A stretch of DNA of 64,000 bases, from assembly GCF_038051945.1 (NCBI RefSeq), contig NZ_CP150302.1, forward strand, positions 3,038,001 through 3,102,000, written 5' to 3'. The notes under the pieces were generated by a model. It was given only the letters and a program-made list of their open reading frames with translations, ran no database searches and had not been told where the DNA came from. The DNA is from Paenibacillus sp. FSL H3-0469. Lineage in GTDB: Bacteria > Bacillota > Bacilli > Paenibacillales > Paenibacillaceae. Positions 1-61,117 of the stretch are shown piece by piece. Each line of letters opens with the position of its first letter. Position 1 is the stretch's first letter. The position numbers and the translations under genes were made by a program.

Positions 1-55
1 GGTCCTTATCCGGTCCTGCTTATACTCGCAGAGCAGCGGCTTGCCCGGACTTATA

Positions 56-7760: not shown

Positions 7761-7825
7761 CGCAATTCCCCCATTTTTTGAATTTTCGTAATTCCAAAGA
7801 ATGAATATATACCAGGGACGCAGGA

Positions 7826-8725
7826 TTACTCCTTAACGGCTCCGAGCATAACACCTTGAACGAAGTACTTTTGGACGAACGGATACACACAGAGGATAGG
7901 CAAGGTAGCGAATACAACGACTGACGCCTTCAGTACTTCGGGATTGCTGAGCTGCACCTGGCTGGCTTCCAGCTGGAAGCTTTCACTCGCCTGAATGACC
8001 AGATAATACAGCTTGAGCTGAAGCGGCCGGAGGGAGGTCTCATGCTTGATATAGAACAATGCGTCCTGATAAGCATTCCAGCGGCCCACCGCATAGAAAA
8101 GGGCAAGTGTCGCCATAATCGGCTTGGATAAAGGCAGCACAATGCTGAACAGAATCCGGAAATGCCCCGCGCCGTCGATCCGTGCTGACTCTTCCAGACT
8201 TACGGGAATCCCGTGCGTTAGAGAAGTCTTCATAATCAGCAGATTGAAGGCACTGAAGGAGAGCGGCAGCACCAGTGACCAGATCGTATCCATCAGTCCC
8301 AGATTGTTGATGTTCATATAGTCGGGGATAATGCCCCCGCTGAAGTACATGGTGAACAGGAAAATGAAGGTGATCACTCTGCGGCCCTTGAACTGGGTTC
8401 TGGACAGCGGATAGGCGGCGCAGATGGTCAGGATCATGCCCAGAATGGTGAACAGCACCGTCACGATGACCGAGATGTACAGGGAACGGAGGATGCTGGC
8501 ATCCGCGAAGATTTTGTTATACGCTTCAATGGTGAAGCCCTGCGGCCACAGAAAGACTTTGTTGGCAATGACGAAGGAGTCAGAACTAAGGGATTTCGAT
8601 ACGACATGAATAAACGGCAGCAGGCAGATTAATGAAATGATGACGATAACGAGGCGGATCAGTGTTTCCCAGATATCTATGCGTGCTTTGTGGGGTGCGG
8701 CAGTGCCTCCGGCTATGGCTTTCAT
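7826..8725 (-). CDS. Carbohydrate ABC transporter permease (LplC/YtcP type)
   Basis: A 299-residue inner-membrane permease with six predicted helices. The cytoplasmic EAA loop that docks the ATPase reads EESARIDGAGHFRILFSIVLP (about residues 185-205), ending with the family Pro. AAAGGAGAGG precedes the start. It lies 14 bases after its partner permease, so both are co-translated and probably form a heterodimer. It ends 65 bases before the binding lipoprotein gene. Confidence 0.92.
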   Translation of the reverse strand: MKAIAGGTAAPHKARIDIWETLIRLVIVIISLICLLPFIHVVSKSLSSDSFVIANKVFLWPQGFTIEAYNKIFADASILRSLYISVIVTVLFTILGMILTICAAYPLSRTQFKGRRVITFIFLFTMYFSGGIIPDYMNINNLGLMDTIWSLVLPLSFSAFNLLIMKTSLTHGIPVSLEESARIDGAGHFRILFSIVLPLSKPIMATLALFYAVGRWNAYQDALFYIKHETSLRPLQLKLYYLVIQASESFQLEASQVQLSNPEVLKASVVVFATLPILCVYPFVQKYFVQGVMLGAVKE

Positions 8726-8739
8726 GGTTCCTCTCCTTT

Positions 8740-9705
8740 CTACAAAATCCCATCCTCGCCAAGCTTCTTGGCTACGCGGTCCGCGGAAATGACCAAAATA
8801 ATTCCGATGACGGACTGGAATAATCCGATGGCGGTCGCCCTGCTGAAATTGCCGCTCTCGATCCCCCAGCGGTATACGAGGACCGGTATGGTGGTGGTGA
8901 ACTCGGTGGTCGCTTTATTTTGCAGCGCATAGATCCGCTCGAAGGAGCCGTCCATTACTTTGCCCAGCGCCATAATCAAGAGCGTCACAATCGTTGCCCG
9001 GATCGATGGAAGGGTGATATTCCAGACCTTTCTCCAGCGGCCTGCCCCGTCTACCGTAGCCGCTTCGTACATCTCGGGGTTGATCCCGCTCATCGCCGCC
9101 AGATAGATAATCGTACCCCAGCCCATGCTCTGCCAGACCCCGATCACGAGATAGCTGATCAGCCAATTCGTATCCTGCTGCAGGAATGGAATCCGGGTGC
9201 CTCCCATCAGTTCTATGAGGTTATTGACAACACCGCCCCCCTCGCTGAGGAGCTGATAGGCGATGGCTCCGATAATGACCCAGGACAGGAAGTGGGGCAA
9301 ATACAGCACCGTCTGATTGATTCTTTTGAACCGTACGCTCTTGATCTCGTTCAGCAGCAGAGCCAGCACAATCGGCATCGTGAAGCTGAAGCAGAGGTCA
9401 AGCACGTTCAGCAGCAGGGTGTTGCGGACGGCCCGGATGAAATCAGGCTTGGCAAACAGGTCCTGGAAAACCTGTAATCCCGCCCATTCACTGCCCCAGA
9501 AGCCTCTGGCAATCTTATAGTCTTTGAAGGCGATTACAAGTCCGGTCATTGGCAAATATTTGAATACGATGACAAAGGCCAGCGGAAGCATCACCAGCAG
9601 ATAGAGCTGCCAATCCCGCTGTAAATAATAGCTGAACCCCTGTTTCCTTCTTAATAAAGGACTGTGATTCGTTTGTGAAGCGCTTGCAGCTTTCAACATA
9701 TTCAC
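8740..9705 (-). CDS. Carbohydrate ABC transporter permease (LplB/YteP type)
   Basis: A 321-residue permease with six predicted helices. Its EAA loop contains EAATVDGAGRWRKVWNITLP (about residues 205-224). A cytoplasmic N-terminus of about 30 residues precedes the first helix. AGGAGGTG lies a few bases before the ATG. It is the first gene of the importer operon; its upstream region holds a cre-like site at 9904-9917 and 51-bp repeats. The membrane AraC-type regulator further upstream is a natural candidate regulator. Confidence 0.92.
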   Translation of the reverse strand: MNMLKAASASQTNHSPLLRRKQGFSYYLQRDWQLYLLVMLPLAFVIVFKYLPMTGLVIAFKDYKIARGFWGSEWAGLQVFQDLFAKPDFIRAVRNTLLLNVLDLCFSFTMPIVLALLLNEIKSVRFKRINQTVLYLPHFLSWVIIGAIAYQLLSEGGGVVNNLIELMGGTRIPFLQQDTNWLISYLVIGVWQSMGWGTIIYLAAMSGINPEMYEAATVDGAGRWRKVWNITLPSIRATIVTLLIMALGKVMDGSFERIYALQNKATTEFTTTIPVLVYRWGIESGNFSRATAIGLFQSVIGIILVISADRVAKKLGEDGIL

Positions 9706-36452: not shown

Positions 36453-36539
36453 ATGGAGGTTTATCAAGCGTTGTCATTGATGTTCATGTTTGGCATGTTC
36501 ATTATTGCTTTGCTGAATTACCTCAATAGGAATAGGTAA
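36453..36539 (+). CDS. Putative holin-like type I toxin, 3' end interrupted by intron
   Basis: A 28-codon frame with a very strong GGAAGGGAGGTGAGGCTC leader. It encodes MEVYQALSLMFMFGMFIIAL then LNYLNRNR. One membrane helix with a short acidic/polar N-terminus and basic tail matches the holin-like (TxpA/BsrG-type) toxins of Firmicutes. The group II intron boundary at about 36536 falls on the last codons, so the present stop codon is supplied by intron sequence. Removing 36536-39114 would join ...AATAG to AAAAGAAATAGACC, giving a different basic tail. Toxicity is inferred from family only. Confidence 0.75.
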   Translation: MEVYQALSLMFMFGMFIIALLNYLNRNR

Positions 36540-36574
36540 GACTTTGAAATTATCTCCGTCTTTTCCCCTCCTCC

Positions 36575-36607
36575 ACACCGTGCTTGCGACTTTCACCGCA
36601 CACGGCG
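36575..36607 (-). ncRNA. Group II intron domain V
   Basis: The catalytic hairpin reads CGCCGTGTGCGG, loop TGAAAGTCGC bulge region, and returning GCACGGTGT arm. It begins with a CGC triad rather than AGC and has the standard GAAA-type loop. It lies 11 bases downstream of the RT stop, as expected. Confidence 0.85.
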
Positions 36608-36617
36608 TTCCATCTTC

Positions 36618-38423: not shown

Positions 38424-39114
38424 TGTGGTATCCCTCCCAACGGAGTAATATTCCCACGTTCTTACCCGATCGATGTCGTTCACTTTTGGAAAATTGAATT
38501 TGAATTAATAAGACTTGGGGCTGTTCCTCCAAACCCATTACAGGTGCTTCATTGGTCGTGCCCCTACTCTCACAGGGGTAAATACATTTCGAATAAGAAC
38601 CCTTATAGTAACCGTCTTGGTTGGCAGACCATGAGACAACGCCCCCTGCTTTCCTTGTTCCTAGTGGCCTAGCTATCCATTCAAAACCTTAGGTGCTGCC
38701 TTTAAGCCTGCGAGTTCGATACTGCCATAGTTCAGTATAGCGAGTTTCCTATCTTTTATATTGTACTCTTCGCCGCTCACCTAGTATTTACTAGCCCACC
38801 AGTTTCCTAGCGGTCCTATTATAGACCTGTACATTCGGCAGTTCGTCAGACATGCGTGTCATTCTCACCATAGCTTGTTTTTCAGCCATCCGGCATATCG
38901 GCTAACATACCTTCTCTTGCGAGTGGCTCTAGTTCTCCTTCTGCCGCCTTCACCTGGCTCCATACGGTATATGCTGCCTAATACCGCATGCAGGAGTATT
39001 AATGAGGTCGTTTTGGGATACATGGTTCCCTCATTCCAACCTTCGGTCACTAAGTTAGATGCTTTGCATCCTTACGTTTCCCACACATGATGGTTATAGT
39101 AAAACAAGTCGCAC

Positions 39115-50100: not shown

Positions 50101-52390
50101 GCTCAGCGGGGACTACTGGCATGTAAAGGGGCTCGATTTCACCCGCTCGGCGGCCAATACAAAGGGATTCACGGTTGGCGGTAACCATAACATTGTTGAG
50201 AATAGCCGCTTCTATGCTAACGGTGACACCGGCCTGCAAATCAGCCGCACAGACGGAACTGCAAAGGACATCACAGAATGGCCGTCCTACAATCTAATTC
50301 TGAACAGCACCTCCTTCGATAACCGCGATCCGTCTGACAATAACGCAGATGGTTTTGCGGCCAAGCTAACCTCCGGTACCGGGAATATTTTCAGAGGATG
50401 CCTGGCGCATAATAACATTGACGATGGCTGGGATCTGTACACCAAAGCAGGCTCGGGTGCCATCGGTCCGGTACTCATCGAGAACAGCGCCGCCTTCAAC
50501 AACGGGTATTTAACGGACGGAACCGTTGGGGCCGGTGATAAAAACGGATTCAAGCTCGGCGGAGAAGGCATTCATGTCGCGCATATCATCCGTAATTCGG
50601 TCGCCTTCGGCAACGGTGCCTACGGGTTCACCAGCAACAGTAATCCTGGAGTCATTGCGGTCAACAATATCGGCTATAACAACACCCGCGGCAACCTGAG
50701 CTTCACCACATATGGTCAGATTACTCCAGACTTTAAGATTGACGGCTTTGTATCCTACCAGTCGGGCAGCATCGGCAAGGATCAATATCCGGCTTCCTTA
50801 GCAGCGGAGAATAACTTCATGTACAATGGTACCGCGTCAGTCAACAAATCAGGCAAGCAGCTGACCGATGCCAATTTCGTAAGTCTGCAGCCGGTGACCT
50901 CTTATCTGCGGGATGCAGAGGGGAATATCATCTGGGGGGAATTTCTGAAGTTTATTCCTTTTGAGAATCAAGTACAGGAGCCAGAGCCGGAACCGGAGCC
51001 GGAGCCGGGAACCCAGCCAGAGCCAGAACCTCAGCCAGAGCCAGAGACCCAGCCGGAGCCAGAGACCCAGCCGGAGCCAGAGCGGGGGACCCAGCCGTCA
51101 CCAAGTCCTTCCGCTGCGCCTGTTTCTTCTGCCACACCAAGTCCAATTTCTGCACCTAACACTAACAGCACTGGCACAGGATCTGCCGCCAACAATTCTA
51201 TTCCGGCGGTTCTCTTGCTGGACGGCAGTGTTAGCATTGATTTACCCGTAAGTCATACCACAGGAAAAGCTTTAGCCCGGTTAAGCGAATCCGCATTGCA
51301 TCAGATCGTTACTGTAGCCAGAGCCGATGCCACGGGTACCAAGACTCTGCGGATTCAACTCACTGCTGATCCTGACCAGGATATGAAGGAAGTGGAGCTA
51401 AGCCTTCCTGCTGCAGCATTTCGTTCAGGAGATGGTCTCCTCAAGCTTGAGATCCGTTCTTCCTTAGCGGCCGTTGGATTACCTCACAGTATCTTCGCAG
51501 CGGAGACGCTTGACGGCGTAAAGACTATTACTTTATCGCTAAGAAGTATGACTCCCGGCGGGCAGCTGCAAGCCAAGCTGGGGGACCGTCCGCTTATCGG
51601 ATACGGGCTTCAATTGGATGGGGCGGCATTGCAGCCTGACCGGTTGCAATCGGCTATAGAGATCGGAATTCCCCATCCGCCAGCAGTTCCTGCAGCGGAC
51701 AATGCTTTTATTGTTGTGTGGGGCATCCAAGAACAGGGAATCGTTCAGCCCGTGATACACGGGAAGTACAACGCAGAGAAGCAGCAGGCCATTTTCTCAA
51801 CAAACGGAATCTCCGGCCAATATACGGCGGTCTACAATCACAAGACCTTCCAGGATATCGACTCACCCCATTGGGCCAAGTCCGCAGTGGAAGTACTCGC
51901 TTCCAAAGGGGTCATTCAAGGCATCTCGGCAGCGGAGTTCAGACCGGAGCAGCCTGTTACCCGCGCAGAATTTGCACTTCTCTTAGTCCGGGGAATGGAG
52001 CTTACAGCGTCAGAAGGGCCCAGCTTCATGGATGTGTCACCGGGGGATGATTATTACAAGGAGCTTATGGCTGCCCGAAAGCTTGGCCTCATTACAGGTC
52101 TGCCGGGAGGTCTATTCCAGCCGGATGTACCGGTATCCAGGCAAGAAATGTTCGTTATGGCAGCTAGAGCATTGCGCGCAGTAGAGCGCATGAATCCAGG
52201 GGAGAATACTTCTTCTGTATTAAAAGGTTTTACCGATCACCAGCAAATTGCAAGCTATGCGGCAGATGATATTGCCGCCCTGGCCGCAGCCGGTCTCGTT
52301 AAAGGAGATGCACAGCAGCAGCTAATGCCCGCTGCCTCCTCGACACGTGCCGAAGCAGCTATGCTGATCTATCGAATGCTTGCGCTATAG
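47156..52390 (+). CDS. S-layer-anchored family 9 pectate lyase, multidomain
   Basis: A 1744-residue secreted protein. Order: signal peptide (1-27); a beta-sandwich module (about 40-215); four bacterial Ig-like (Big_3 type) modules (about 230-575); a second copy of the beta-sandwich module (about 578-790); a PL9 right-handed beta-helix (about 895-1235) with IYVSPAGTSAGDGT, the catalytic-Lys block NNADGFAAKLTSGTGN (about 1066) and AHNNIDDGWDLYTK. A Pro-Glu repeat linker (about 1268-1312), an unassigned region and three SLH domains (about 1565-1744) end it. PL9 enzymes cleave polygalacturonate by Ca-dependent beta-elimination; SLH domains bind pyruvylated wall polymer. GTG start with AAGGAGAGG upstream. 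Confidence 0.9.
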   Translation: MKKLQRLLSVFVTVLLLSSSIPISLSAEAAGTSGQAEPGPWTFSAFGGNTSQGKNPEPAIENSSTVTLTTYGGKISGTDEGLSFYYRELPASTNFELRARATVIAFNSNSGVSTPNQKSFGLMLRDTVNPHGSSSTTTSNYAAAGALDLVMKGFYKKTAQVKLNPFAGLSAPAAGEVYDLSIRKSGDTYLLSVNGQTEIVTLEDTFSETMFAGIYVSRDATVAFSELDLQIETKHVTSLSADTSGMTKTSYLVGEPLDLTGLIVKAVFSDHSEATLSSEEYIVTGFDSSTAGENRIQINYNGASVSIPLQIIPLTVSSLSVKYEPVKTVYYPGDSFDPQGLVVAAHYNNGYLIKELAHDLYTLSINGQPVTEQLPYTFAGPGSYEVLIASTETPSVTTALQLEVMDATLSDLEIRHMPKQTVYYIGDTLQLEGLSLYAHYSDLTEVRLAKDEYTVSPLDTLTPGDKEIKVTYKELTASFTVKVKIKELTGIEITRYPVTTFFVNEPFDSSGLTVSKVYDNADREVLSGFTLDHSAFDNRQSGVYKVQIIPDDSSIQPITYTVTVKEKTTPVWHSITFGQSTSAANNKVVAQDDGTLRVIALEGGGKVTEDHDGITFYYTELNALEDNFVLSADIEVLNFAKTPYDGQESFGIMARDAIGTPGTSSVFASNIAAIGGYSGGTRSALGTQLFVRSGIEKPDGTGSKGIKTIMLKNERPAPGNTAPAAPYRLTLSKTNSGFTGRINSEREAIHFEPDILSVQDSTMYVGFYAARLATIDIRNIQLTVTSAATDAPKVEPPAAPVTPDLSILSRSKASTPEYEVIVRPNVNGTVTVKQGSRIIAQDVAATADKRLAVPAVLSGHGDTNFSVVFWPEDTQYLTSYDTIVRNFTVNMNSYGNGEDIYVSPAGTSAGDGTMALPLDLDTAIDYVKPGQHILMLDGHYVRKSPLVIQKYNNGTEAARKVLEAAPGARPIIDFDKKTEGVLLSGDYWHVKGLDFTRSAANTKGFTVGGNHNIVENSRFYANGDTGLQISRTDGTAKDITEWPSYNLILNSTSFDNRDPSDNNADGFAAKLTSGTGNIFRGCLAHNNIDDGWDLYTKAGSGAIGPVLIENSAAFNNGYLTDGTVGAGDKNGFKLGGEGIHVAHIIRNSVAFGNGAYGFTSNSNPGVIAVNNIGYNNTRGNLSFTTYGQITPDFKIDGFVSYQSGSIGKDQYPASLAAENNFMYNGTASVNKSGKQLTDANFVSLQPVTSYLRDAEGNIIWGEFLKFIPFENQVQEPEPEPEPEPGTQPEPEPQPEPETQPEPETQPEPERGTQPSPSPSAAPVSSATPSPISAPNTNSTGTGSAANNSIPAVLLLDGSVSIDLPVSHTTGKALARLSESALHQIVTVARADATGTKTLRIQLTADPDQDMKEVELSLPAAAFRSGDGLLKLEIRSSLAAVGLPHSIFAAETLDGVKTITLSLRSMTPGGQLQAKLGDRPLIGYGLQLDGAALQPDRLQSAIEIGIPHPPAVPAADNAFIVVWGIQEQGIVQPVIHGKYNAEKQQAIFSTNGISGQYTAVYNHKTFQDIDSPHWAKSAVEVLASKGVIQGISAAEFRPEQPVTRAEFALLLVRGMELTASEGPSFMDVSPGDDYYKELMAARKLGLITGLPGGLFQPDVPVSRQEMFVMAARALRAVERMNPGENTSSVLKGFTDHQQIASYAADDIAALAAAGLVKGDAQQQLMPAASSTRAEAAMLIYRMLAL
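50978..51093 (+). repeat. Pro-Glu coding tandem repeat
   Basis: Short in-frame repeats of GAGCC(A/G)GA-type triplets encode alternating Pro and Glu with ETQPEP blocks, forming a flexible acidic linker between the lyase and the region before SLH domains. Such repeats can change length by slippage. Confidence 0.8.
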
Positions 52391-52429: not shown

Positions 52430-52694
52430 GGCTGAGAGAGGTATTCAAAGGGATTTATCCCTTTGGTTCAGCCCAGAGTCGGCTGGAGGGGGCATTTAAA
52501 GGGATTTACCCCTTTAATTCAGCCCGAAGTCCGCTGGAGGGGGCATTCAAAGGGATTTATCCCTTTAATTCAGCCCAGAGTCGGCTGGAGGGGGTATTCA
52601 AAGGGATTTATCCCTTTAATTCAGCCCAGAGTCGGCTGGAGGGGGTATTCAAAGGGATTTATCCCTTTAATTCAGCCCGAGAGTCGGCTGGAGG
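52430..52694. repeat. 51-bp tandem repeat array, five copies
   Basis: Copies start at 52430, 52481, 52532, 52583 and 52634; the last is 52 bases and a partial unit follows. Each contains AAAGGGA-TTTA-TCCCTTT, a perfect 7-bp hairpin, and CAGCC...GGCTG, a second small stem. Copies 2-5 are nearly identical. A 17-codon repeating frame exists because 51 is divisible by 3, but it has no ribosome binding site, so I treat it as non-coding. It lies between the S-layer lyase and a GNAT gene. Confidence 0.85.
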
Positions 52695-52709
52695 AGCGGC
52701 TTGGGCAAC

Positions 52710-53255
52710 TTATTTGCTCCCGTGGTTGTTCCTGTACTCATCCTCCAGAATCGAATATTGATAGGAGTCCATCCACTTCTCTTTATGATACATATGTCCT
52801 CTAATATGCCCTTCGTATGTCATGCCTAGCTTCTGCATCACACGGGCGGAACCGGTATTCCCGGGACGGCAGGTCGCATAGATCCGGTGAAGCTCCAGCT
52901 TATGAAAGCCTAAGTCCAGCAGTACAGCGGCAGCCTCAGTAGCATAACCCTGTCCCCAGTACAGCCTATTGTAGCAATAGCCTATCTCTCCCTGCCCTGT
53001 TCCGGTAATATGCAGGCCACAGCCGCCGATCAGCCGCCCGTTCTCCTTCAGCACCACCGCATACTCGAAGCCCTGGCGCGGCTCCTCCTGCTGCAATGTC
53101 AGCGTATGGCGGATATATTCGCGGGTATCCTCCAGTGAATTCGGCCCCCAGATTGAATGTGTTACTACTGCCGGATCGGACGCATATTCATGTACCTGCC
53201 CTACATCTTCCTCTGTGAATTCCCTAATCCACAGCCGTTCTGTCTCAAATTCCAT
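52710..53255 (-). CDS. RimJ/RimL-type GNAT acetyltransferase
   Basis: A 181-residue transferase starting MEFETERLWIREFTEEDVGQ. The acetyl-CoA motif is YCYNRLYWGQGYATEAAAVL (about 91-110), followed by KLELHRIYATCRPGNTGSAR, typical of the RimJ/L group that acetylates protein N-termini or small amines. CAGGGAGG lies 10 bases before ATG 53255. An alternative ATG at 53282 overlaps the DinB stop as ATGA. It is therefore an operon with the DinB gene. Substrate unknown. Confidence 0.88.
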   Translation of the reverse strand: MEFETERLWIREFTEEDVGQVHEYASDPAVVTHSIWGPNSLEDTREYIRHTLTLQQEEPRQGFEYAVVLKENGRLIGGCGLHITGTGQGEIGYCYNRLYWGQGYATEAAAVLLDLGFHKLELHRIYATCRPGNTGSARVMQKLGMTYEGHIRGHMYHKEKWMDSYQYSILEDEYRNNHGSK

Positions 53256-53881: not shown

Positions 53882-54658
53882 TTATTCAAAAACATACTCG
53901 CCTTCACCAACAGTCAGAGTCTGTCCCTTCAGCTGGGGTGAATCGGTCCGAAGAATGACCCGGCTGAACTGGTTCTCCGTGCCCTGCACGAAATTGAAGG
54001 TCTGCTGATCTCCTGCCTTAAGACTGTAGCTGCCGTCCACACCATCCGCAGGCCCGCTCACCGGGAGGCCGAACAGCTCACTCCAATGGCTGGCGGCAGC
54101 GGCAGGCTCGGAGACACGGAAGACCGCACCCGCCATGTCTACCTTCCCGGCAGGATGGGGCTGATTGATTCTGGCTGCGTTCAGACTGTCCAGCCGCTCC
54201 TCATCCGATTGACTCCACTGGATAATGAACGGATAGACCAGTCCCTGAAAATCGCCGTCAATGGTCATCATCCGCCACTCAATTAACCTGCCCTGGTTGT
54301 CCAGACGGCGGCCGTCAATGATGGGCGACAGGGCTAATCCCGCAGCCTTCAATTTACCCTCTACTGCCTCAATATCATCTGTGCGCAGCACCACTCTGCT
54401 TAATACCTCATGCTCCGGCAGAACGGTAACGGCATCCCGCACAACCACATTATGCTTGGTCGCACGCGCCAGCTCCAGGTTCTCAATCCCGAGGAACTCC
54501 AGGTAGGTGAGCCCGAAATAGCTCAAGGCGTTATACGTTCCCCAATCCTTATGCGATCCGCCCCGGAAGGCCGTCAGGCCATGCTCCGCGAAGAGCTTCA
54601 CCGGCTGGTCCAGATCGTTGACATAGTGCACCAGATGATCCCATTTGAGCAGGGTCAT
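53882..54658 (-). CDS. VOC family protein (glyoxalase-like)
   Basis: A 258-residue protein with two betaalphabetabetabeta halves. It opens LLKWDHLVHYVNDLDQPVKL, where the His is a usual metal ligand, and has NALSYFGLTYLEFLGIEN with candidate Glu. It reads like the Glyoxalase_3 group rather than ring-cleaving dioxygenases. Its ATG overlaps the proC-like stop by one base (TAATG), so translation is coupled. It is the last gene of the eight-gene operon. VOC enzymes include lyases, isomerases and dioxygenases; the reaction here is unknown. Confidence 0.8.
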   Translation of the reverse strand: MTLLKWDHLVHYVNDLDQPVKLFAEHGLTAFRGGSHKDWGTYNALSYFGLTYLEFLGIENLELARATKHNVVVRDAVTVLPEHEVLSRVVLRTDDIEAVEGKLKAAGLALSPIIDGRRLDNQGRLIEWRMMTIDGDFQGLVYPFIIQWSQSDEERLDSLNAARINQPHPAGKVDMAGAVFRVSEPAAAASHWSELFGLPVSGPADGVDGSYSLKAGDQQTFNFVQGTENQFSRVILRTDSPQLKGQTLTVGEGEYVFE

Positions 54659-55473
54659 TACTTCTTCACTCCCAGCTCTGTCGTCCGCTTCACAGCCGCC
54701 AATACGCTCCGCTGCAATCCGGCCGCGAAGTCACTATTATTCAGCTCGTACAGCCCGTGCATCCCAACCCCGCCAGGCGAGTTGTTGATATCCAGCAGCT
54801 GTCTCGGGTGGAGGCCGGTCTGCTGCAGCATCGCTACCGCTCCCAGCATATTCTCCAGCGCCACCTTCCAGGCTTGCTCCCGCGACAGTCCGGCGAGAAC
54901 TCCGGCATCTGTGAACGACTCAATGAAATAATAGATATAGTTCGGTCCGGCAACGCCGAAGCCGGTGAAGATATCAATGTAGGACTCGTCCAGAACCTGC
55001 ACCTTGCCGAAGCCGAGCAGGAATGCTTCTACCTGCTCCAGCGAAGCGGCTGCATTCAGGGCTACACCGCTGTATCCGTAACCGGTATCGGTCAAGGTAT
55101 TCGGAATTACCCGGACAATCGGGCGCTTCGCTCCGAAATAATCTCCGAGCTGGGCAATCGTAACCCCGGCCACAATGGATACAATAACTGCAGACGGTGC
55201 AGCATACTCGCGAACCTGTGCTCCAAGTGCAGCCAGATCATCCTGCGGCCGGACAGCAATCACGATCAACTCTGCGCCGGACAGCGCATCTTCCTGCGCG
55301 CTCTCCGTGTCTACGTTATATTTGCTTTTTAGTAGCTGAAGCCGTCCTTCATGAATATCCGCTACACTGATCTGTCCGGCAGCCAGCGTGTCGCCTGCCA
55401 GACAGGCCCGGATGATCGCTTCCGCCATCTGTCCGCCGCCAATGAAATGAATCTTGCCTTTTGACACTTCCAT
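54658..55473 (-). CDS. Pyrroline-5-carboxylate reductase family protein (divergent ProC)
   Basis: A 271-residue NAD(P)H-dependent imine reductase of the ProC family. The Rossmann motif is IHFIGGGQMAEAIIRACLAG (about 8-27). Canonical ProC blocks are altered: RVIPNTLTDTGYGYSG instead of RxMPNTPAxVGxG, and NNSPGGVGMHGLYELN instead of SPGGTTxxxL. These residues line the substrate and cofactor site, so the substrate may be an imine other than pyrroline-5-carboxylate. It lies 16 bases behind metQ and is coupled to the VOC gene, which also argues against a plain proline biosynthetic role. Confidence 0.85.
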   Translation of the reverse strand: MEVSKGKIHFIGGGQMAEAIIRACLAGDTLAAGQISVADIHEGRLQLLKSKYNVDTESAQEDALSGAELIVIAVRPQDDLAALGAQVREYAAPSAVIVSIVAGVTIAQLGDYFGAKRPIVRVIPNTLTDTGYGYSGVALNAAASLEQVEAFLLGFGKVQVLDESYIDIFTGFGVAGPNYIYYFIESFTDAGVLAGLSREQAWKVALENMLGAVAMLQQTGLHPRQLLDINNSPGGVGMHGLYELNNSDFAAGLQRSVLAAVKRTTELGVKK

Positions 55474-55489
55474 TCACTCCCTGATTAGA

Positions 55490-56323
55490 TTAGTTATTAG
55501 CCCAAGCCTCCGGCAGAATGAACCCGGCATATTTCTCTTGTCCGAGGATGTATTCCTCAAACTCCTTGGATTCATATGCAGCCTTCAGATCCTTGGCCCA
55601 CTGGGTATCCTGGTCCTTCTTGTTCACCGATACGATGATTCTATGCTGCATAGGCGTATTCTCAATCTTCAGCGCATCTGTAATCTTGCGGTCGGGAGCG
55701 TTAGCGATATAATTCCCGTTCACCACACCATAGTCAACATCCTGCAGCGAGACCAGAATCTGCGCCGGGTCCAGCACCTTCAGGTCAATCTTGAACTTGT
55801 CCGGCTCCACGCTGTTCACATTGAAGTCCGCTACCCCGGCGCCCTCTTTGATCTTGACCCAACCCAGCTCCTCCAGAATCCGCAGCGCACGCTCCTGATT
55901 AACCGGATCGTTCGGAATCGCGACGGTAGTGCCGTCCTTCACATCGTCAAGGGTCGTATGATTAACGGAATACAGCCCCTGCGGAGCGCCTGGAACATAG
56001 GCAATCCCCACCATATCGGCACCAATTTCCTTATTGATCGCATCCATATAAGCCGTGCTCTGGAAGATGCTCGCGTCAATCGAGCCTTCCTTCATCGCCG
56101 GGTTGACCTGCATATTCTGCGAGAAGGTTTTGATATCTACAGTATACCCTTTTCCTTCCAGGATCGGGAGAATGGATTGCCGGAACTGCTCCTCATACGT
56201 GCCTACGCCGAATCCGACTGTGATTTCCTTCTTGTCCCCGGAGCTTGCCGCTTCCTTATTGTTACCGCAAGCCGCCAGCACCGCCATCGAACTAATCAGT
56301 AGAATTGCCAGTAATTTTTTCAT
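55490..56323 (-). CDS. metQ: MetQ-type methionine-binding lipoprotein
   Basis: A 277-residue lipoprotein of the NlpA/MetQ family. Signal peptide with lipobox L16-A-A-C19. The family pattern EITVGFGVGTYEEQFRQSIL and TVAIPNDPVNQERALRILEE (about 129-148) is clear. ATG 56323 is chosen, with GGATAGGGG 8 bases upstream. It is separated from metN and metI by the UroD-like gene, which is unusual because MetNIQ genes are normally adjacent. Relatives bind L- or D-methionine, S-methyl-cysteine or other small amino acids, so the substrate is not certain. Confidence 0.92.
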   Translation of the reverse strand: MKKLLAILLISSMAVLAACGNNKEAASSGDKKEITVGFGVGTYEEQFRQSILPILEGKGYTVDIKTFSQNMQVNPAMKEGSIDASIFQSTAYMDAINKEIGADMVGIAYVPGAPQGLYSVNHTTLDDVKDGTTVAIPNDPVNQERALRILEELGWVKIKEGAGVADFNVNSVEPDKFKIDLKVLDPAQILVSLQDVDYGVVNGNYIANAPDRKITDALKIENTPMQHRIIVSVNKKDQDTQWAKDLKAAYESKEFEEYILGQEKYAGFILPEAWANN

Positions 56324-56335
56324 CACTCTCATCCC

Positions 56336-57355
56336 CTATCCTAATACTGTGTTTTTAAAATGCACTAATGCCTCGTCTGTAACCGTCAGCGGAATGGCGC
56401 AATTGGGCGACAGAATAAACGGCTGACCCTTCATTTTGGACAAAGCTTCCTTCGCCTGCTGTTCAATCTGGTTCAGATCATTTCCGGCAAACAGCCCGTG
56501 ATCCACTCCGCCCACCTTCGTGGCCTTGAGATCGGCTTCCAGCCCAGGATTGCCTTCGGCTACCGTATCCCAGCTGATCCCGTCAATCCGGTAATCATTG
56601 AATTTCACAGGCTGGGCATGAGCACCGCAGGTATGTAAAATATTCTTGCCATAGCTCGCCGCCTCCAGCACGATAGAATCATAGGGTCTGGACAGCTCAT
56701 CGAACATCGCTTCATCGAATAATCCGGGGTGGGCTGTGCCTGTCACCGCATAGAACAGACCATCTGATCCTGCCTGCCGCAGCTCCTGCACATAATCGGC
56801 CAAGGTTAAGGCAATCGCATGCAGGGCATGATGCGCGGCGGCACGATGTTCCTTGAAGAGCGATTCCAGCGTCACCGGCTGCCCGATCCCGAATACGGTC
56901 TCCGTAACATAAGCAGAACGTCCTACGATGAACAGCAATACCGTGAGCGGGGAGAAGACCGTCTGAATCAGCGGTGTATCCGGCAAGCCCTGACGAATCT
57001 TCCTTACCGCCTCCAGATGCTCCAGCAGCGAAGGGGTTTGCGCGGCTTTTTTCACCTCAAGATCCCAGAGATTCGCGGCAGCCGGAACAGCAGTAGTCAG
57101 TTGTCTCGGGAATACCGTCCGGTAATCTGCGAAGTTATACTCATTTCCCCAGGCTTCCGCCAGATAGGTCGCTCTCGGGTTGATTTTGACCCAGTCCCAA
57201 TTATATTTGTCCGTAAAAGAAATCGTAGACGACGCCAAGTCCTCCGCATTCTGCTCCTTGTCAATAAAGTGGCGCCATCCGCTGATAATCGGCCGGTCGG
57301 CAAGTTCCCCGGATAAGATCGCCTGAAAACGCTCCTGCTTGCTCCATACACTCAT
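56336..57355 (-). CDS. Zinc-type UroD-family methyltransferase-like protein
   Basis: A 339-residue protein of the uroporphyrinogen decarboxylase superfamily. It has His241-x-Cys243 in NILHTCGAHAQ and Cys319 in LSPNCAIPL, i.e. HxC-x75-C, the zinc ligand pattern of MtaA/MtbA/MtsA methylcobamide:thiol methyltransferases. HemE proteins lack it. It therefore probably transfers or accepts a methyl group with a zinc-bound thiol, not decarboxylate uroporphyrinogen. No corrinoid protein gene is nearby. AAGGGG precedes ATG. It is inserted between metI and metQ in the operon. Substrate (a methylated sulfur or amino compound) is inferred. Confidence 0.85.
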   Translation of the reverse strand: MSVWSKQERFQAILSGELADRPIISGWRHFIDKEQNAEDLASSTISFTDKYNWDWVKINPRATYLAEAWGNEYNFADYRTVFPRQLTTAVPAAANLWDLEVKKAAQTPSLLEHLEAVRKIRQGLPDTPLIQTVFSPLTVLLFIVGRSAYVTETVFGIGQPVTLESLFKEHRAAAHHALHAIALTLADYVQELRQAGSDGLFYAVTGTAHPGLFDEAMFDELSRPYDSIVLEAASYGKNILHTCGAHAQPVKFNDYRIDGISWDTVAEGNPGLEADLKATKVGGVDHGLFAGNDLNQIEQQAKEALSKMKGQPFILSPNCAIPLTVTDEALVHFKNTVLG

Positions 57356-57382
57356 CTGCCTATCCCCTTTGTCTTGTATTCT

Positions 57383-58042
57383 CTAGTAACGGCGAATCTT
57401 CCGCGCCAAGGTGTTGCCCAAGGACTGAATACCCTGCACCAGAATAATCAGAATAATGACCGTCGCGAACATGACGACCTCGTCAAAACGCTGATACCCG
57501 TACACGATTGCCAAGTCGCCGACCCCTCCTCCGCCTACTGCCCCGGCCATTGCCGTAGCCCCGATCAGCCCGATCGTCGCTGTAGTCAGGGAGAGAATTA
57601 ACGAGCCCACCGCTTCCGGCAGCAGAAAATACCAGATGACCTGCAGCGGAGTTGCGCCCATCGCTTCCGCAGCTTCGAGAATGCCCGGATTCACTTCCAG
57701 CAGCGAATTCTCGACCAGCCGTGCGATATAGGGGGCGATATAGATAATCAGCGGAACAATTGCGGCACTGGTCCCAATCGATGTATGAACAATTGCTCTT
57801 GTTAGCGGAATAATGGCAAACAGCAGAATAATAAACGGAACCGAACGGATGACATTAATTAAGGGATTCAGTAAGGTATACAGCCACTTGCTCTCCAGGA
57901 CGCCGCCCGGACGGGTAATGACCAGCAGGATGCCCAGCGGAATACCCAGCAGCGAGCCGATGAATAGCGATACACCCACCATCTGAATCGTTTCAATAAT
58001 CGCCTTCAGGAATTGCTCACTTGTGATCGATGTCGAGAACAT
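57383..58042 (-). CDS. metI: Methionine ABC transporter permease MetI
   Basis: A 219-residue permease with five predicted helices. The EAA loop is EAAEAMGATPLQVIWYFLLP (about 135-154), ending in Glu-Ala-Val. The glycine-rich MAGAVGGGGVGDLAIVYGYQ near residue 175 is diagnostic for MetI. AGGAGGTG precedes ATG 58042, inside the 3' end of metN; the genes overlap by 26 bases. It pairs as a homodimer with MetN ATPases. Confidence 0.95.
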   Translation of the reverse strand: MFSTSITSEQFLKAIIETIQMVGVSLFIGSLLGIPLGILLVITRPGGVLESKWLYTLLNPLINVIRSVPFIILLFAIIPLTRAIVHTSIGTSAAIVPLIIYIAPYIARLVENSLLEVNPGILEAAEAMGATPLQVIWYFLLPEAVGSLILSLTTATIGLIGATAMAGAVGGGGVGDLAIVYGYQRFDEVVMFATVIILIILVQGIQSLGNTLARKIRRY

Positions 58043-59060
58043 AGGACTTCACCTCCTCTATGCGGACCTCATGCTGCTTCATATAATTCAAGGCTGCTTC
58101 CATCTGGGCCGGTTCACCTTGCAGCTGTACGATAATCATGCCGAGCGTCGTCTCTTGAATCTCTGTCGTATTCGCAAACAGAATGTTGACCTTGACCCCG
58201 TAGGTACGGATAATCTCGTACAGCACAGGCTCAGAAGCGCTCTCCCCGGCAAAATTCAGCTTATACACCTGGCTCCCCTGCTCAGTCTTCAGCGTTCTGC
58301 GGACGCTTGTAGTCATGCTGTTCTGAATAACAGTCTTGACGAAATTCTGTGTCGTCTGATGCTTCGGTGCTCCGAACACATCCAGCACGCTGCCCTGCTC
58401 GATAATCCGTCCCTCTTCCATTACGGCTACCTTGTTGCAGATCTCCTGAATCACCGACATCTCATGCGTGATGATCATCACCGTGATGTTGTATTCCGCG
58501 TTGATCCGCTTGAGCAGCTGCAGGATGGACTGTGTCGTCTGCGGGTCCAGAGCAGAAGTGGCTTCATCGCACAATAGTATCGAAGGGTTCGAGGCAAGTG
58601 CCCGGGCAATCCCGACCCGCTGCTTCTGTCCGCCTGACAGCTCGCTCGGATAGCTTCCAGCCTTATCGCTTAGCCCGACGAATTCGAGCAGCTCCTCTAC
58701 CCGCTTGCGGATTTCCGCCTTGCTCTTTTTCAGCAGGATGAGTGGAATAGCCACATTGTCGAACACCTTTTTGGACTCCAGCAGATTAAAATGCTGAAAA
58801 ATCATGCCGATGTTTTTCTTGGCTGCCCGCAGCTCTTTGTCGCTGTACGCACCCAGATCGTACCCGTCCACCAGCACCTGGCCCTCAGACGGACGTTCCA
58901 GGTAATTGACCAGGCGGATTAACGTGCTTTTTCCGGCTCCGCTGTAGCCGATGACTCCGAAGATATCGCCCTTTTCCACCTTCAGGCTGATCCCCTTGAG
59001 CGCTTCAATCTTCACCTCTTTGCGGGTGAACGTCTTGTACACATTCCGTAGTTCAATCAT
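58017..59060 (-). CDS. metN: Methionine ABC transporter ATP-binding protein MetN
   Basis: A 347-residue ATPase. Walker A is GYSGAGKSTL (about 38-47), signature LSGGQKQRVGIARAL (about 141-155) and Walker B ILLCDEATSALD (about 162-173). The C-terminal NIL (C2) domain, about 270-345, binds methionine in E. coli and inhibits transport, so feedback is likely. ATG 59060 has GAGGGG 8 bases upstream; a TTG-started longer frame contains the site. It lies 42 bases behind the M20 gene and overlaps metI. Confidence 0.96.
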   Translation of the reverse strand: MIELRNVYKTFTRKEVKIEALKGISLKVEKGDIFGVIGYSGAGKSTLIRLVNYLERPSEGQVLVDGYDLGAYSDKELRAAKKNIGMIFQHFNLLESKKVFDNVAIPLILLKKSKAEIRKRVEELLEFVGLSDKAGSYPSELSGGQKQRVGIARALASNPSILLCDEATSALDPQTTQSILQLLKRINAEYNITVMIITHEMSVIQEICNKVAVMEEGRIIEQGSVLDVFGAPKHQTTQNFVKTVIQNSMTTSVRRTLKTEQGSQVYKLNFAGESASEPVLYEIIRTYGVKVNILFANTTEIQETTLGMIIVQLQGEPAQMEAALNYMKQHEVRIEEVKSYVLDIDHK

Positions 59061-59102
59061 AGTTGTTCCCCTCAATCATCTGGTAAATTTAGGATTCAGG
59101 AT

Positions 59103-60263
59103 TCAAGCCTGCTGCTTCAGCTTCGCCAGCGCCTCTTCTGCCAGGAGAGCGAAATACTTGGCTGCCGGCAGGATGGCCGCCTCATCGACATCGAAGCGGG
59201 GATGATGCAGCGCATGGTTCGGGCCGGTGCCGATATTCACAAAAGCACCCGGGAACTGCTGCAAATAATAGGCGAAATCCTCTCCGCCCATCTGCGGCGG
59301 AATATCGTGTACCTCATAGCCTGATTGTGCCGCGACCTCTTTGGTGAAGTCTGTCCATGCTCCGTGATTGACCGTAGCGGGCGGGCCGGGATACCAGTGC
59401 AGCTTCGCCTCTGCTCCGGCTGCGGCTGCAATCCCTTCTATGATCCGCGTCATTTGGGCTGGGATGCTGCTGCGGATCTCTTCGTTATACGTACGTACTG
59501 TACCTTCCAGCTCCACCTTCTCCGGCAGCACATTCCAGGTGAAGCCCCCGTTGATCCGGGTCACACTGAGCACGACCGGCTCCTGCGTGTTATTCAGGCG
59601 GCTGACTACGGTTTGCAGCATCGTAATGATCTGCGCGGCGGTCACAATGGTGTCTACCCCTTTCTCCGGTGTAGCTGCGTGAGCGCCAACCCCTTTTACC
59701 GTAATCTCAAAGCGGTCAACGCCAGCCGTTAAAGCTCCCGTTCTTGTACCGAACGCCCCGTTAGGCAGATCCGGTGAATTATGTAATCCGAATATCGCGT
59801 CAACCCCGCTTAGCCCGCCGGATGCCAGTACATCCTCCGCACCATGCCCCGTCTCTTCTGCCGGCTGGAACAGGATTCTGACCTTGCCCGGCAGTTCATG
59901 CTCACGCTGCTTCAGCAGGCTGGCCGCGCCCAGGATCACAGCGGTGTGGAAATCATGGCCGCAGGCATGCATGGCTCCCGGAATCTCTGATGCGAACGGC
60001 AGGCCCGTCTGCTCCTCAATCGGCAGGGCATCGATATCGCAACGAATCGCTACAATGCTGCCATCACCTTGTCCCACCTCAGCGATCAGCCCGGTCTTCA
60101 GAGGAAGATCCAGCACCCGTATCCCCGCTTCACTCAGCCACCCGCGCAGCTTCTCTGTCGTTCTGAACTCTTCATTACTCAGCTCAGGCTCGCGGTGCAG
60201 GTTCCTCCGCACTCCGGTTAGCCGGGCTGCCAGTGCTTCTTCCGTCTCATGCTGTGGTCTCAT
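59103..60263 (-). CDS. M20 family amidohydrolase / N-acyl amino acid hydrolase
   Basis: A 386-residue M20D-type metallopeptidase that cleaves N-acyl amino acids. Metal and catalytic blocks are HACGHDFHTAVILGAA (about 100-115), QPAEETGHGAEDVLASG (with the Glu pair, about 137-153), GLHNSPDLPNGAFG and MGGEDFAYYLQQFPG (about 324). It resembles YxeP/SndB-type enzymes, which remove N-acetyl groups from cysteine or methionine derivatives in Bacillus sulfur salvage. It lies 21 bases after gntR and before metN, so an imported N-acyl or derivatised methionine/cysteine is the likely substrate. Confidence 0.9.
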   Translation of the reverse strand: MRPQHETEEALAARLTGVRRNLHREPELSNEEFRTTEKLRGWLSEAGIRVLDLPLKTGLIAEVGQGDGSIVAIRCDIDALPIEEQTGLPFASEIPGAMHACGHDFHTAVILGAASLLKQREHELPGKVRILFQPAEETGHGAEDVLASGGLSGVDAIFGLHNSPDLPNGAFGTRTGALTAGVDRFEITVKGVGAHAATPEKGVDTIVTAAQIITMLQTVVSRLNNTQEPVVLSVTRINGGFTWNVLPEKVELEGTVRTYNEEIRSSIPAQMTRIIEGIAAAAGAEAKLHWYPGPPATVNHGAWTDFTKEVAAQSGYEVHDIPPQMGGEDFAYYLQQFPGAFVNIGTGPNHALHHPRFDVDEAAILPAAKYFALLAEEALAKLKQQA

Positions 60264-60284
60264 AGGCTTGTTCTTCCCCCTTCA

Positions 60285-60956
60285 TTACGTATGCTCAATT
60301 CCTCTGATCCGCTCCAGTGCAGTCGCAAGGCTGCTTAGGATATGCTCCCGCATTGCCCGCTCCGCCCCCTCTTCATCCCTGGCTATGATTCTCTGCAGAA
60401 TCACAAGATGCTCCTCATCCGCCTGCGTATTCCAGTCCCCATGTAGCGAGACATAACGGCAATACCGGAGGGAACGGTCTCTTAACTGGTTCAGCACCTT
60501 CTCAAAAGTCTTCAGCGCGCTGATCTCCCACAAGTAATCATGGAATTCGAAGCCATAGGATACAACATCCTGCTGATCCCCCATCTGGAAGGATTGCTTC
60601 AGCTTCTCCAGAATGAGCGTTAACTGCTGAATATCCTTGATAGTAGCGTTTCTGGCGGCGCTTCTGGCGATATGACCTTCAAGCATGCTGCGGATCTGGA
60701 AGATCTCCTCGACCTCCTTAATCGTTAAAGGGGCTACCCGCAGCCTGCCGTTGGGCTGGCGCACCAGGAAATCCTCATTCTCCAGCCGCTGAATCGCTTC
60801 CCGTAGCGGAGTCCGGCTGACCCCGAGCAGTGCCGCCAGGCTTTCTTCGTTAACCGCCTGATCCGGCTCCAGCTCGCTATCTATTATTTTTTGCTTAAGT
60901 GCATAGTAGGTATTATCCTTCGACAATCTTCGTGAACGCATTTCCATAGATTTCAT
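60285..60956 (-). CDS. GntR family regulator (FadR/FCD type)
   Basis: A 223-residue regulator. The N-terminal winged helix includes NEESLAALLGVSRTPLREAI (about 36-55) and LENEDFLVRQPNGRLRVAPL. The all-helical FCD ligand domain (about 80-215) has the metal-binding pattern Asp...His...His in GFEFHDYLWEIS and MREHILSSL. It is first in the operon behind a strong promoter (61089-61117), so it probably represses its own operon until a small carboxylate or amino-acid ligand binds. ATG 60956 has GAGGAG 2 bases away, so ATG 60947 is also possible. Confidence 0.92.
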   Translation of the reverse strand: MKSMEMRSRRLSKDNTYYALKQKIIDSELEPDQAVNEESLAALLGVSRTPLREAIQRLENEDFLVRQPNGRLRVAPLTIKEVEEIFQIRSMLEGHIARSAARNATIKDIQQLTLILEKLKQSFQMGDQQDVVSYGFEFHDYLWEISALKTFEKVLNQLRDRSLRYCRYVSLHGDWNTQADEEHLVILQRIIARDEEGAERAMREHILSSLATALERIRGIEHT

Positions 60957-61088
60957 TGCTCCTCGCTATTCATTTGCGGGTCGCCCGGCTAACTGTATAA
61001 TTGTATCCATTTATTAAAGATGAGAGATATCCAAGATATTATGAAAGCTTCGGTTGAAAATCTCTCTGTGCCATCAAGCTTTTTTCAT

Positions 61089-61117
61089 ACTATAATCCCA
61101 TTATCCCCACTAGTCAA
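61089..61117 (-). promoter_or_regulatory. Sigma-A promoter of the gntR-metNIQ operon
   Basis: On the minus strand TTGACT (61112-61117), a 17-base spacer and TATAGT (61089-61094). It lies about 130 bases upstream of gntR. I found no SAM (S-box) riboswitch or T-box in the leader, unlike many methionine operons. Confidence 0.75.

Follow-up and report, generated by a model that had tools for sequence, protein, structure and literature searches.

A conserved MetNIQ-type operon of Paenibacillus with a UroD-like gene, proposed to import and salvage a capped sulfur amino acid

We analysed an eight-gene operon in a 64-kb stretch of the Paenibacillus sp. FSL H3-0469 genome (here called the window; G000:C1:3038001-3102000, part of a complete 7.77-Mb genome). 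The operon, on the minus strand at window positions 53882-60956, encodes a GntR-type regulator, an M20 amidohydrolase, a MetNIQ-type importer, a UroD-like protein, a ProC-like enzyme and a vicinal oxygen chelate (VOC) protein. Its genes are inherited together and include one for a regulator of its own. From gene content and sequence comparison, we propose that the operon takes up and salvages a sulfur amino acid that is N-blocked, S-substituted or both (a cysteine or homocysteine with a cap) and not free methionine, and we give this proposal an even chance. Below, positions without a locus label are those within the 64-kb stretch, and L### and G### label loci and genomes; sources with PMC numbers are cited from excerpts.

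Conservation, layout and control of the operon

The UroD-like protein was matched in 65 of 394 genomes of the window's family (E <= 1e-30), and a profile of 11 UroD-like sequences found matches at 1e-40 in 33 of 296 genomes of the order, 12 of 398 of the class and 6 of 398 of the phylum (the order, class and phylum samples overlap). We compared the 64 loci, window included, in which the UroD-like protein is at least 48% identical. They consist of 58 loci (27 and 18 with full operons and 13 others, with the window and L129 among the 58) and six additional full loci (L033-L037 and L040). The short duplicates L001-L032 and L101-L107 were excluded, L038 and L039 are identical to L061 and L062 and were counted once, and genes in pieces (UroD in L058, M20 in L033 and L098) were scored as present; G210 contributes one full and one partial operon. 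The whole run gntR-(PLP)-M20-metN-metI-UroD-metQ-proC-VOC, in which PLP stands for a pyridoxal phosphate (PLP) enzyme present in some operons, was found on one strand in 51 of the 64 loci, of which L113 belongs to a second family of the order and the other 50 to that of the window. The quartet UroD-metQ-proC-VOC stays together in 63 loci, the sole exception being L129, where UroD adjoins a polar-amino-acid-type importer. metNI or M20 is divergent from the quartet in six loci, the quartet stands alone in two, and four are missing at least one of the early genes, in two cases (L099 and L100) because the stretches are limited to 4.5 kb, so that these genes fall outside. When 350 non-operon open reading frames (ORFs) around 55 loci were clustered, the most recurrent were the PLP gene (18 loci) and a GNAT-like gene (11 loci, by eye), followed by one at 6. 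The sequence-only reading of the window would have been refuted by a lack of gene-order conservation among relatives, which is not what the comparison showed: the order is kept in these 51 homologous loci while the flanks change, and the operon is a conserved unit beyond chance. Its ends are nevertheless defined, although close relatives share some flanks. Of the named relatives in which the operon was found, Paenibacillus silagei is the closest (UroD 97% identical).

Parts of the operon also occur without UroD. The VOC protein was matched in 40 of 294 family genomes (1e-20), of which 34 had a UroD match and six did not (G091 with 57% identity, G381 with 53% and four with 32-37%). Both L139 (G091, 6998-9438) and L141 (the second G186 locus, 6989-9465) hold metQ-proC-VOC, and this trio can thus persist without UroD; L140 (G381) has VOC alone. 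By eye, the ORFs flanking L141 resemble those of L044-L046, which suggests loss of UroD and M20 there. In addition, UroD is broken in G209 and G200 and truncated in L059.

The coordinates of the eight ORFs agree with the single-strand arrangement, gaps and overlaps described earlier, and a Pfam scan of the eight proteins returned domain families in agreement with the gene names given then. The first gene, gntR (60285-60956), encodes a GntR/FCD-family regulator (PF00392 and PF07729) and is followed after 21 bases by the gene for the M20 amidohydrolase, a likely N-deacylase (59103-60263; PF01546 and PF07687, i.e., Peptidase_M20 and M20_dimer; TIGR01891 at 376.4 bits, cut-off 153.75). The metN-like gene for an ATP-binding cassette (ABC) ATPase with a NIL domain (58017-59075; PF00005 and PF09383; TIGR02314 at 406.7 bits, cut-off of 499.7 not reached) probably starts with the in-frame ATG at 59060 rather than the listed TTG, which leaves a gap of 42 bases to M20 instead of 27. 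It overlaps by 26 bases with the gene for a metI-like permease (57383-58042; PF00528, BPD_transp_1; PRK10782 at 211.1 bits, cut-off 212). Next are the UroD-like gene after 27 bases (56336-57355; PF01208, URO-D, and the motif H241-x-C243...C319, a predicted zinc site), the gene for a metQ-like lipoprotein with an altered ligand pocket after 3 bases (55490-56332; PF03180, NlpA lipoprotein; motifs FQSxAY and IENTPxxHRI/V) and, after 16 bases, the gene for a ProC-like imine reductase/dehydrogenase with an NNSPGGVG loop (54658-55473; PF14748 and PF03807, i.e., P5CR_dimer and F420_oxidored), which scored 196.6 bits with TIGR00112, just under the equivalog cut-off of 196.75. The last gene, for a VOC protein of the Glyoxalase_3 family (53882-54658; PF13468 at 136.9 bits, cut-off 25.1), shares 1 base with proC at a junction that reads TAATG. 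In the NCBIfam scan, MetQ, MetI and MetN all scored under their cut-offs.

A sigma-A-like promoter (TTGACT-17-TATAGT; 61089-61117, minus strand; 10 of 12 consensus bases) precedes gntR. Its score alone is weak, because the window contains 10 promoter-like sites compared with 6.4 +/- 2.3 in shuffles; the single promoter proposed earlier is nevertheless kept, in that TTGACT-16..18-TATA[GT]T precedes gntR in 26 of the 28 operons of the eight-gene type. It was found in none of the 18 nine-gene upstream regions (e.g., L053, L060 and L113), and the promoter therefore differs between the two operon types. Of 46 operons, 43 have the palindrome TTGTATACAATTATACAA upstream of gntR with 0-1 mismatch; the three regions beyond this limit are those of the window (3 mismatches), L069 (5; an operator-like stretch lies ~295 bases upstream) and L088 (6). 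In the window, this GntR operator candidate (60993-61010, minus strand) is degenerate, with 3 mismatches in 18, two of them in the left half; this half is kept in the close relatives L079 and L081, and control of the operon may therefore be relaxed in this strain. Among loci without gntR (L041-L046, L056, L059 and L108), no match better than 4 mismatches was found; by chance, ~2 matches at 5 or fewer mismatches are expected per 64-kb base-shuffled window. GntR may bind the palindrome, and would probably repress the operon through this site in the absence of an inducer, for which the substrate is a candidate.

An Rfam scan of the window at gathering scores returned neither an S-box nor a T-box, in agreement with the leader as originally described, and we rejected control of the operon by either. 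In P. polymyxa, a GlnR site has been predicted at a metN-metI operon that may or may not correspond to the present one (PMC9948412).

The importer pocket and the associated enzymes

A separate metN-metI-metQ locus with an S-box (RF00162, 69.8 bits) lies at L114:2800-5656, ~2 kb past the high end of the window, and the genome thus already has a standard methionine importer; a third metNIQ-like locus is at L115:7509-9727. The operon MetQ and its counterpart at the S-box locus share 31% identity. In an alignment, the S-box MetQ keeps all seven methionine-contact residues, whereas the operon MetQs have Asn at the equivalent of Y81 and Ser at that of H100 (both 63 of 63) and Ile or Val at that of N238, within the IENTPxxHR motif (62 of 63); between 61 and 63 of the 63 retain the motifs with F98, Y103, R156 and N213. 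The substitution N238A in MetQ weakened binding >10^5-fold (PMC6739813). Five plasmid MetQ proteins, like the S-box MetQ, retain His at the H100 position. The operon transporter belongs to the family of the MetNIQ methionine importer and has the same gene types, but differs from it in three of seven contact positions, in a GntR operator candidate in place of the S-box and in a fixed set of metabolic enzymes. With three contact residues replaced in the operon MetQ and all kept in the S-box MetQ, plain methionine uptake was rejected, and the suggestion that this is not a standard methionine supply operon is borne out. We infer that the operon MetQ takes a substrate that is not free methionine and that may have its amino group blocked or carry an additional negative charge.

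Together with the altered pocket, the M20 enzyme makes an N-acylated substrate plausible; the methylated amino acid suggested beside it in the sequence-only reading is not supported. The enzymes ScmP, YhaA and YtnL of Bacillus subtilis belong to the M20 family, as does that of the operon. These three deacetylate N-acetylcysteine (PMC12757645). The ProC-like enzyme has the loop NNS[PA]GGVG in 63 of 63 operon copies, and the genome's other ProC, encoded beside proB/proA-like ORFs, has TSPNGST; the altered loop suggests that the operon enzyme takes a substrate other than pyrroline-5-carboxylate. E. coli ProC oxidises thioproline, by which cysteine is said to be recovered (PMC12899673).

A ninth gene, located between gntR and M20 in 18 of the 51 full operons, codes for a PLP enzyme that belongs to the Cys/Met metabolism family. 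It resembles the methionine gamma-lyases, which are its best matches in the PDB. It differs from them in that the L113 copy scored 475.2 bits with TIGR01328, under the cut-off of 549.7, and in the active-site loop, which reads YGGT in all seven copies compared (one operon copy and six from elsewhere), with Gly at the position of the loop Cys of methionine gamma-lyase; the aligned chain 4mkk has Ala there. The window operon lacks this gene. The window genome's best matches to the enzyme are only 42% identical, and no plasmid match was found at 1e-120. The eight genes had looked like a complete route in the sequence-only reading, a claim that is not supported, given a gene resembling a C-S lyase in 18 of 51 operons that is missing from the window. 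In a midpoint-rooted UroD tree (63 rows, with L059, L056, L091, L099 and L100 left out and ORFs trimmed to the last 345 residues), the 33 eight-gene loci and the nine-gene locus L065 formed a supported group (95/98) within the 51, and the remaining nine-gene loci branched outside it. This grouping fits a single loss, and the PLP gene was apparently lost in the lineage of the window, with gains as a further possibility. G185 contributes two full operons to the 51 (L053 and L054), only one of which has the PLP gene.

The UroD-like enzyme and its relatives

H241, C243 and C319 are invariant in 11 UroD-like sequences down to 39% identity, and the His-Cys-Cys motif is present in 60 of 61 operon copies; in seven more distant UroD-like proteins and in five plasmid ones, His replaces the first Cys. 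From this motif, we predict a zinc site. The family is best known in methane-making microbes. The operon protein gave weak matches to NCBIfam models of methylcobalamin:coenzyme M methyltransferase, and such an enzyme, 4ay7, is its best solved relative (E 1.5e-5, profile against PDB); a phmmer search of PDB sequences with a single UroD-like sequence (0.01) gave no match, and the profile alone found one. The operon holds one UroD-like gene, and the genome's only other PF01208 gene, which scores much stronger, lies ~4.2 Mb away and is presumably HemE.

The sequence-only reading had proposed methyl transfer, which in its known form involves a corrinoid. We searched 47 chosen genomes with a UroD-like gene for PF02607, and 43 matched. 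The four without a match (G072, G604, G757 and G1182) are 97-100% complete; G072 has an operon without gntR found in its stretch (L056), G604 the quartet (L108), and G757 and G1182 distant UroD-like genes. The matches were mostly in MetH-sized ORFs (~1150 amino acids) or in ORFs of 300-400 amino acids, with carrier-size ORFs in some genomes (e.g., G158, G653, G1293, G981, G902 and G1185). In the 43 genomes, no listed match shared a contig with the UroD-like gene at a distance of 50 kb or less. Based on the four genomes without a match, we rejected a corrinoid carrier protein as a requirement, and methyl transfer of the known corrinoid type is not supported; PF02607 would miss an atypical carrier or the use of free cobalamin. 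Ram/RACE was not among the eight operon genes by Pfam, no search for it having been made elsewhere in the genomes.

The closest precedent is the type 1 mlp clusters (Kountz and Balskus, PMC10418091), which have UroD-superfamily proteins with a His-Cys-Cys zinc motif, argued there to favour S/Se, and methionine transporters and sulfur genes as neighbours. The operon differs from these clusters in that mlp needs at least Mlp2 and Mlp3 together, along with a corrinoid protein and a Ram/RACE activase, and the operon has one UroD-like gene, with no PF02607 match listed near it.

UroD-like genes beyond the operon type were compared by neighbourhood. Five loci of one other Bacilli family (L110, L111 and L126-L128) encode a GntR protein (39-44% identical to that of the operon), a PLP enzyme matching PF01053 (64-70% identical to the operon type) and a distant UroD-like protein (24-27%). 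Their importers are of the polar-amino-acid type in L110, L126 and L127 and TctC/TctB/TctA in L111 and L128 (in L128, TctC alone was checked). The sequence TTGTATACAA is located at gntR in all five: 28-38 bases before the gene in L110, L111 and L128, before a probable later start of it in L126, and in L127 both 83 bases before it and again overlapping the called start. It occurs nowhere else in these five stretches (17-19 kb). One exact copy is located elsewhere in the window, at 30796, possibly by chance. L109 has a PLP gene and a UroD-like gene, with neither gntR nor TTGTATACAA in its stretch.

According to existing annotation, Gemmobacter has UroD-TctCBA-RidA-cysteine synthase family-opine dehydrogenase; Microvirga has UroD-TctCBA, with GntR-HyuA-HyuB-opine dehydrogenase and cysteine dioxygenase nearby; and Polaromonas, where annotation is sparse, has UroD with an NAD(P)-dependent oxidoreductase. 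Close to the UroD-like gene on plasmid p2 of Gemmobacter fulvus, and separated from it by a LysR gene, a gene for a class A beta-lactamase is annotated (L133:7039-7896). By Pfam, L047 encodes HyuA/HyuB, L120 an opine dehydrogenase and a PF03417 acyltransferase, and L129 an acyl-CoA-dehydrogenase-like protein; by eye, L049-L051 have oligopeptide-type importers with M20-type peptidases. A separate pairing of MetNIQ and UroD is found in Aerococcus tenax (CP127381.1, L135:6635-10014), where metQ, an ATPase and a MetI-type permease precede a distant UroD-like gene and the MetQ keeps His at the H100 position. The shared theme of these loci is amino-acid-like import, hydrolysis of N-groups, imine chemistry and, in part, C-S chemistry.

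As a tentative proposal that we would not call probable, a zinc enzyme of the UroD fold may break or exchange a C-S bond without a corrinoid and form the core of a modular salvage system of Bacilli, in which the GntR operator core and the PLP lyase family are kept and the importer is swapped (MetNIQ, polar-amino-acid ABC or TctCBA).

Proposed route and alternatives

The shared theme of the loci, together with the ScmP/YhaA/YtnL and E. coli ProC precedents, leads us to place the operon with the salvage of capped sulfur amino acids. In the route that we propose, the re-specialised MetQ, the pocket change of which is seen in the sequence, would import its ligand together with MetNI, and the M20 enzyme, as its family suggests, would strip an N-acyl or N-formyl group. 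The UroD-like enzyme would hold the sulfur on its putative His-Cys-Cys zinc site and remove or move the S-substituent without a dedicated corrinoid carrier. In the nine-gene form, the PLP enzyme, if it acts like methionine gamma-lyase, would cleave the C-S bond of the amino acid thus freed. The ProC-like enzyme may act on a cyclic or imine form, for which a thiazolidine or thiazoline is a candidate, and the VOC enzyme, in the least certain step, might handle a carbonyl or thiol adduct. The scm (yxe) operon for the breakdown of S-(2-succino)cysteine in B. subtilis recovers cysteine with an importer, an N-deacetylase and a remover of the S-cap, and different enzymes, YxeK or 2SL, can serve in this last slot (PMC9706529 and PMC12757645). 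The present operon holds an importer and an M20 enzyme, and the UroD-like protein may take the place of the cap remover. It differs in that the YxeK monooxygenase, 2SL and the YxeL acetyltransferase are not among the eight genes, and in its MetNIQ-type importer and UroD-like, ProC-like and VOC genes; it would thus be like scm/yxe in logic and not in parts. A literature search of open-licence PMC papers, partly limited to the best matches, found no described pathway with this gene set, in agreement with the sequence-only reading.

Several observations weigh against this proposal. Sulfur chemistry is indicated most strongly by the PLP enzyme, which is missing from 33 of the 51 operons, including that of the window, and UroD is dispensable in that L139 and L141 retain metQ-proC-VOC. 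The AlphaFold model of the UroD-like protein (nine sequences, 84-97% identical) was unusable, with a mean pLDDT (predicted local distance difference test) of 38.9, and the zinc site is therefore read from the motif alone. VOC and ProC are without a firm role in the scheme. The ORFs beside UroD in L122 and L130 match only PF03313 (serine dehydratase alpha chain), a family that presumably includes cysteine desulfidase; a reading of them as cysteine desulfidase was rejected, and they do not clearly point to sulfur. Finally, the distant UroD-like genes of L047-L051, L112, L121 and Thermomicrobium are without sulfur-linked neighbours.

The alternative that fares best, though we consider it unlikely, is salvage of thiazolidine-trapped cysteine, in which the ProC-like enzyme would oxidise the ring, the M20 enzyme remove an N-formyl or N-acyl group, and the VOC and zinc enzymes treat an aldehyde-thiol adduct. 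The oxidation of thioproline by E. coli ProC, the persistence of ProC-like and VOC genes with metQ even where UroD is missing, and the recurrence of opine dehydrogenases and hydantoinases near UroD-like genes favour it. However, given the altered ProC loop, proline-like substrates may not fit, nothing points directly to an aldehyde adduct, and the PLP enzyme is poorly explained.

Somewhat less likely still is corrinoid-dependent S- (or Se-) demethylation, by which the UroD-like enzyme would transfer methyl between cobalamin and a methylthiol or thioether in the manner of mlp, borrowing cobalamin or its carrier from elsewhere. The His-Cys-Cys motif, 4ay7 as best solved relative, the mlp precedent and the PF02607 proteins in 43 of the 47 genomes, mostly MetH-sized and some carrier-size, are consistent with it; the four genomes without PF02607, the lack of a listed match within 50 kb on the same contig in the other 43, and the occurrence of mlp clusters in anaerobes only, as stated in the excerpt (PMC10418091), argue against it. 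That the operon is an ordinary supply operon for methionine or methionine peptides with passenger genes is improbable: MetN, MetI and MetQ are recognisable family members, but the equivalents of Y81, H100 and N238 are lost, the S-box belongs to the separate metNIQ, and the gene order is too conserved for passengers; the scores of MetQ and MetN under the NCBIfam cut-offs are a weak point, as the S-box copies were not scored for comparison. Salvage of a selenium analogue (an N-acyl or methylated seleno-amino acid) instead of a sulfur compound is very improbable, for although the UroD relative ClMlp2 prefers selenide over sulfide in vitro (PMC10418091), we found nothing specific for selenium, no model search for selenium genes having been made.

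Elsewhere in the window, Rfam identified two group II intron matches on the minus strand, at 36526-36610 (RF00029, 63.2 bits) and 38879-39059 (RF02004, 98.8 bits); they lie ~2.3 kb apart in a part of lower GC content and possibly represent one group II intron. A 51-base tandem repeat (4.9 copies, 93% matches) at 52443-52694, ~1.2 kb past the 3' end of the operon, makes up most of a repetitive ORF at 52463-52804 on the plus strand, and short GAGCCA-like tandem repeats with periods of 6, 18 and 36 are located at 50978-51097.

Returning to the salvage of a capped sulfur amino acid, the UroD-superfamily S/Se-methyltransferases in the excerpt of PMC10418091 work with corrinoid partners, and an operon of this kind in genomes without detectable PF02607 would extend the range of the fold. 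With an importer of changed pocket, one operator candidate and one regulator, the operon is a compact handle, and the ligand of its MetQ would probably reveal a sulfur compound of soil or plants that is used by many Paenibacillus.

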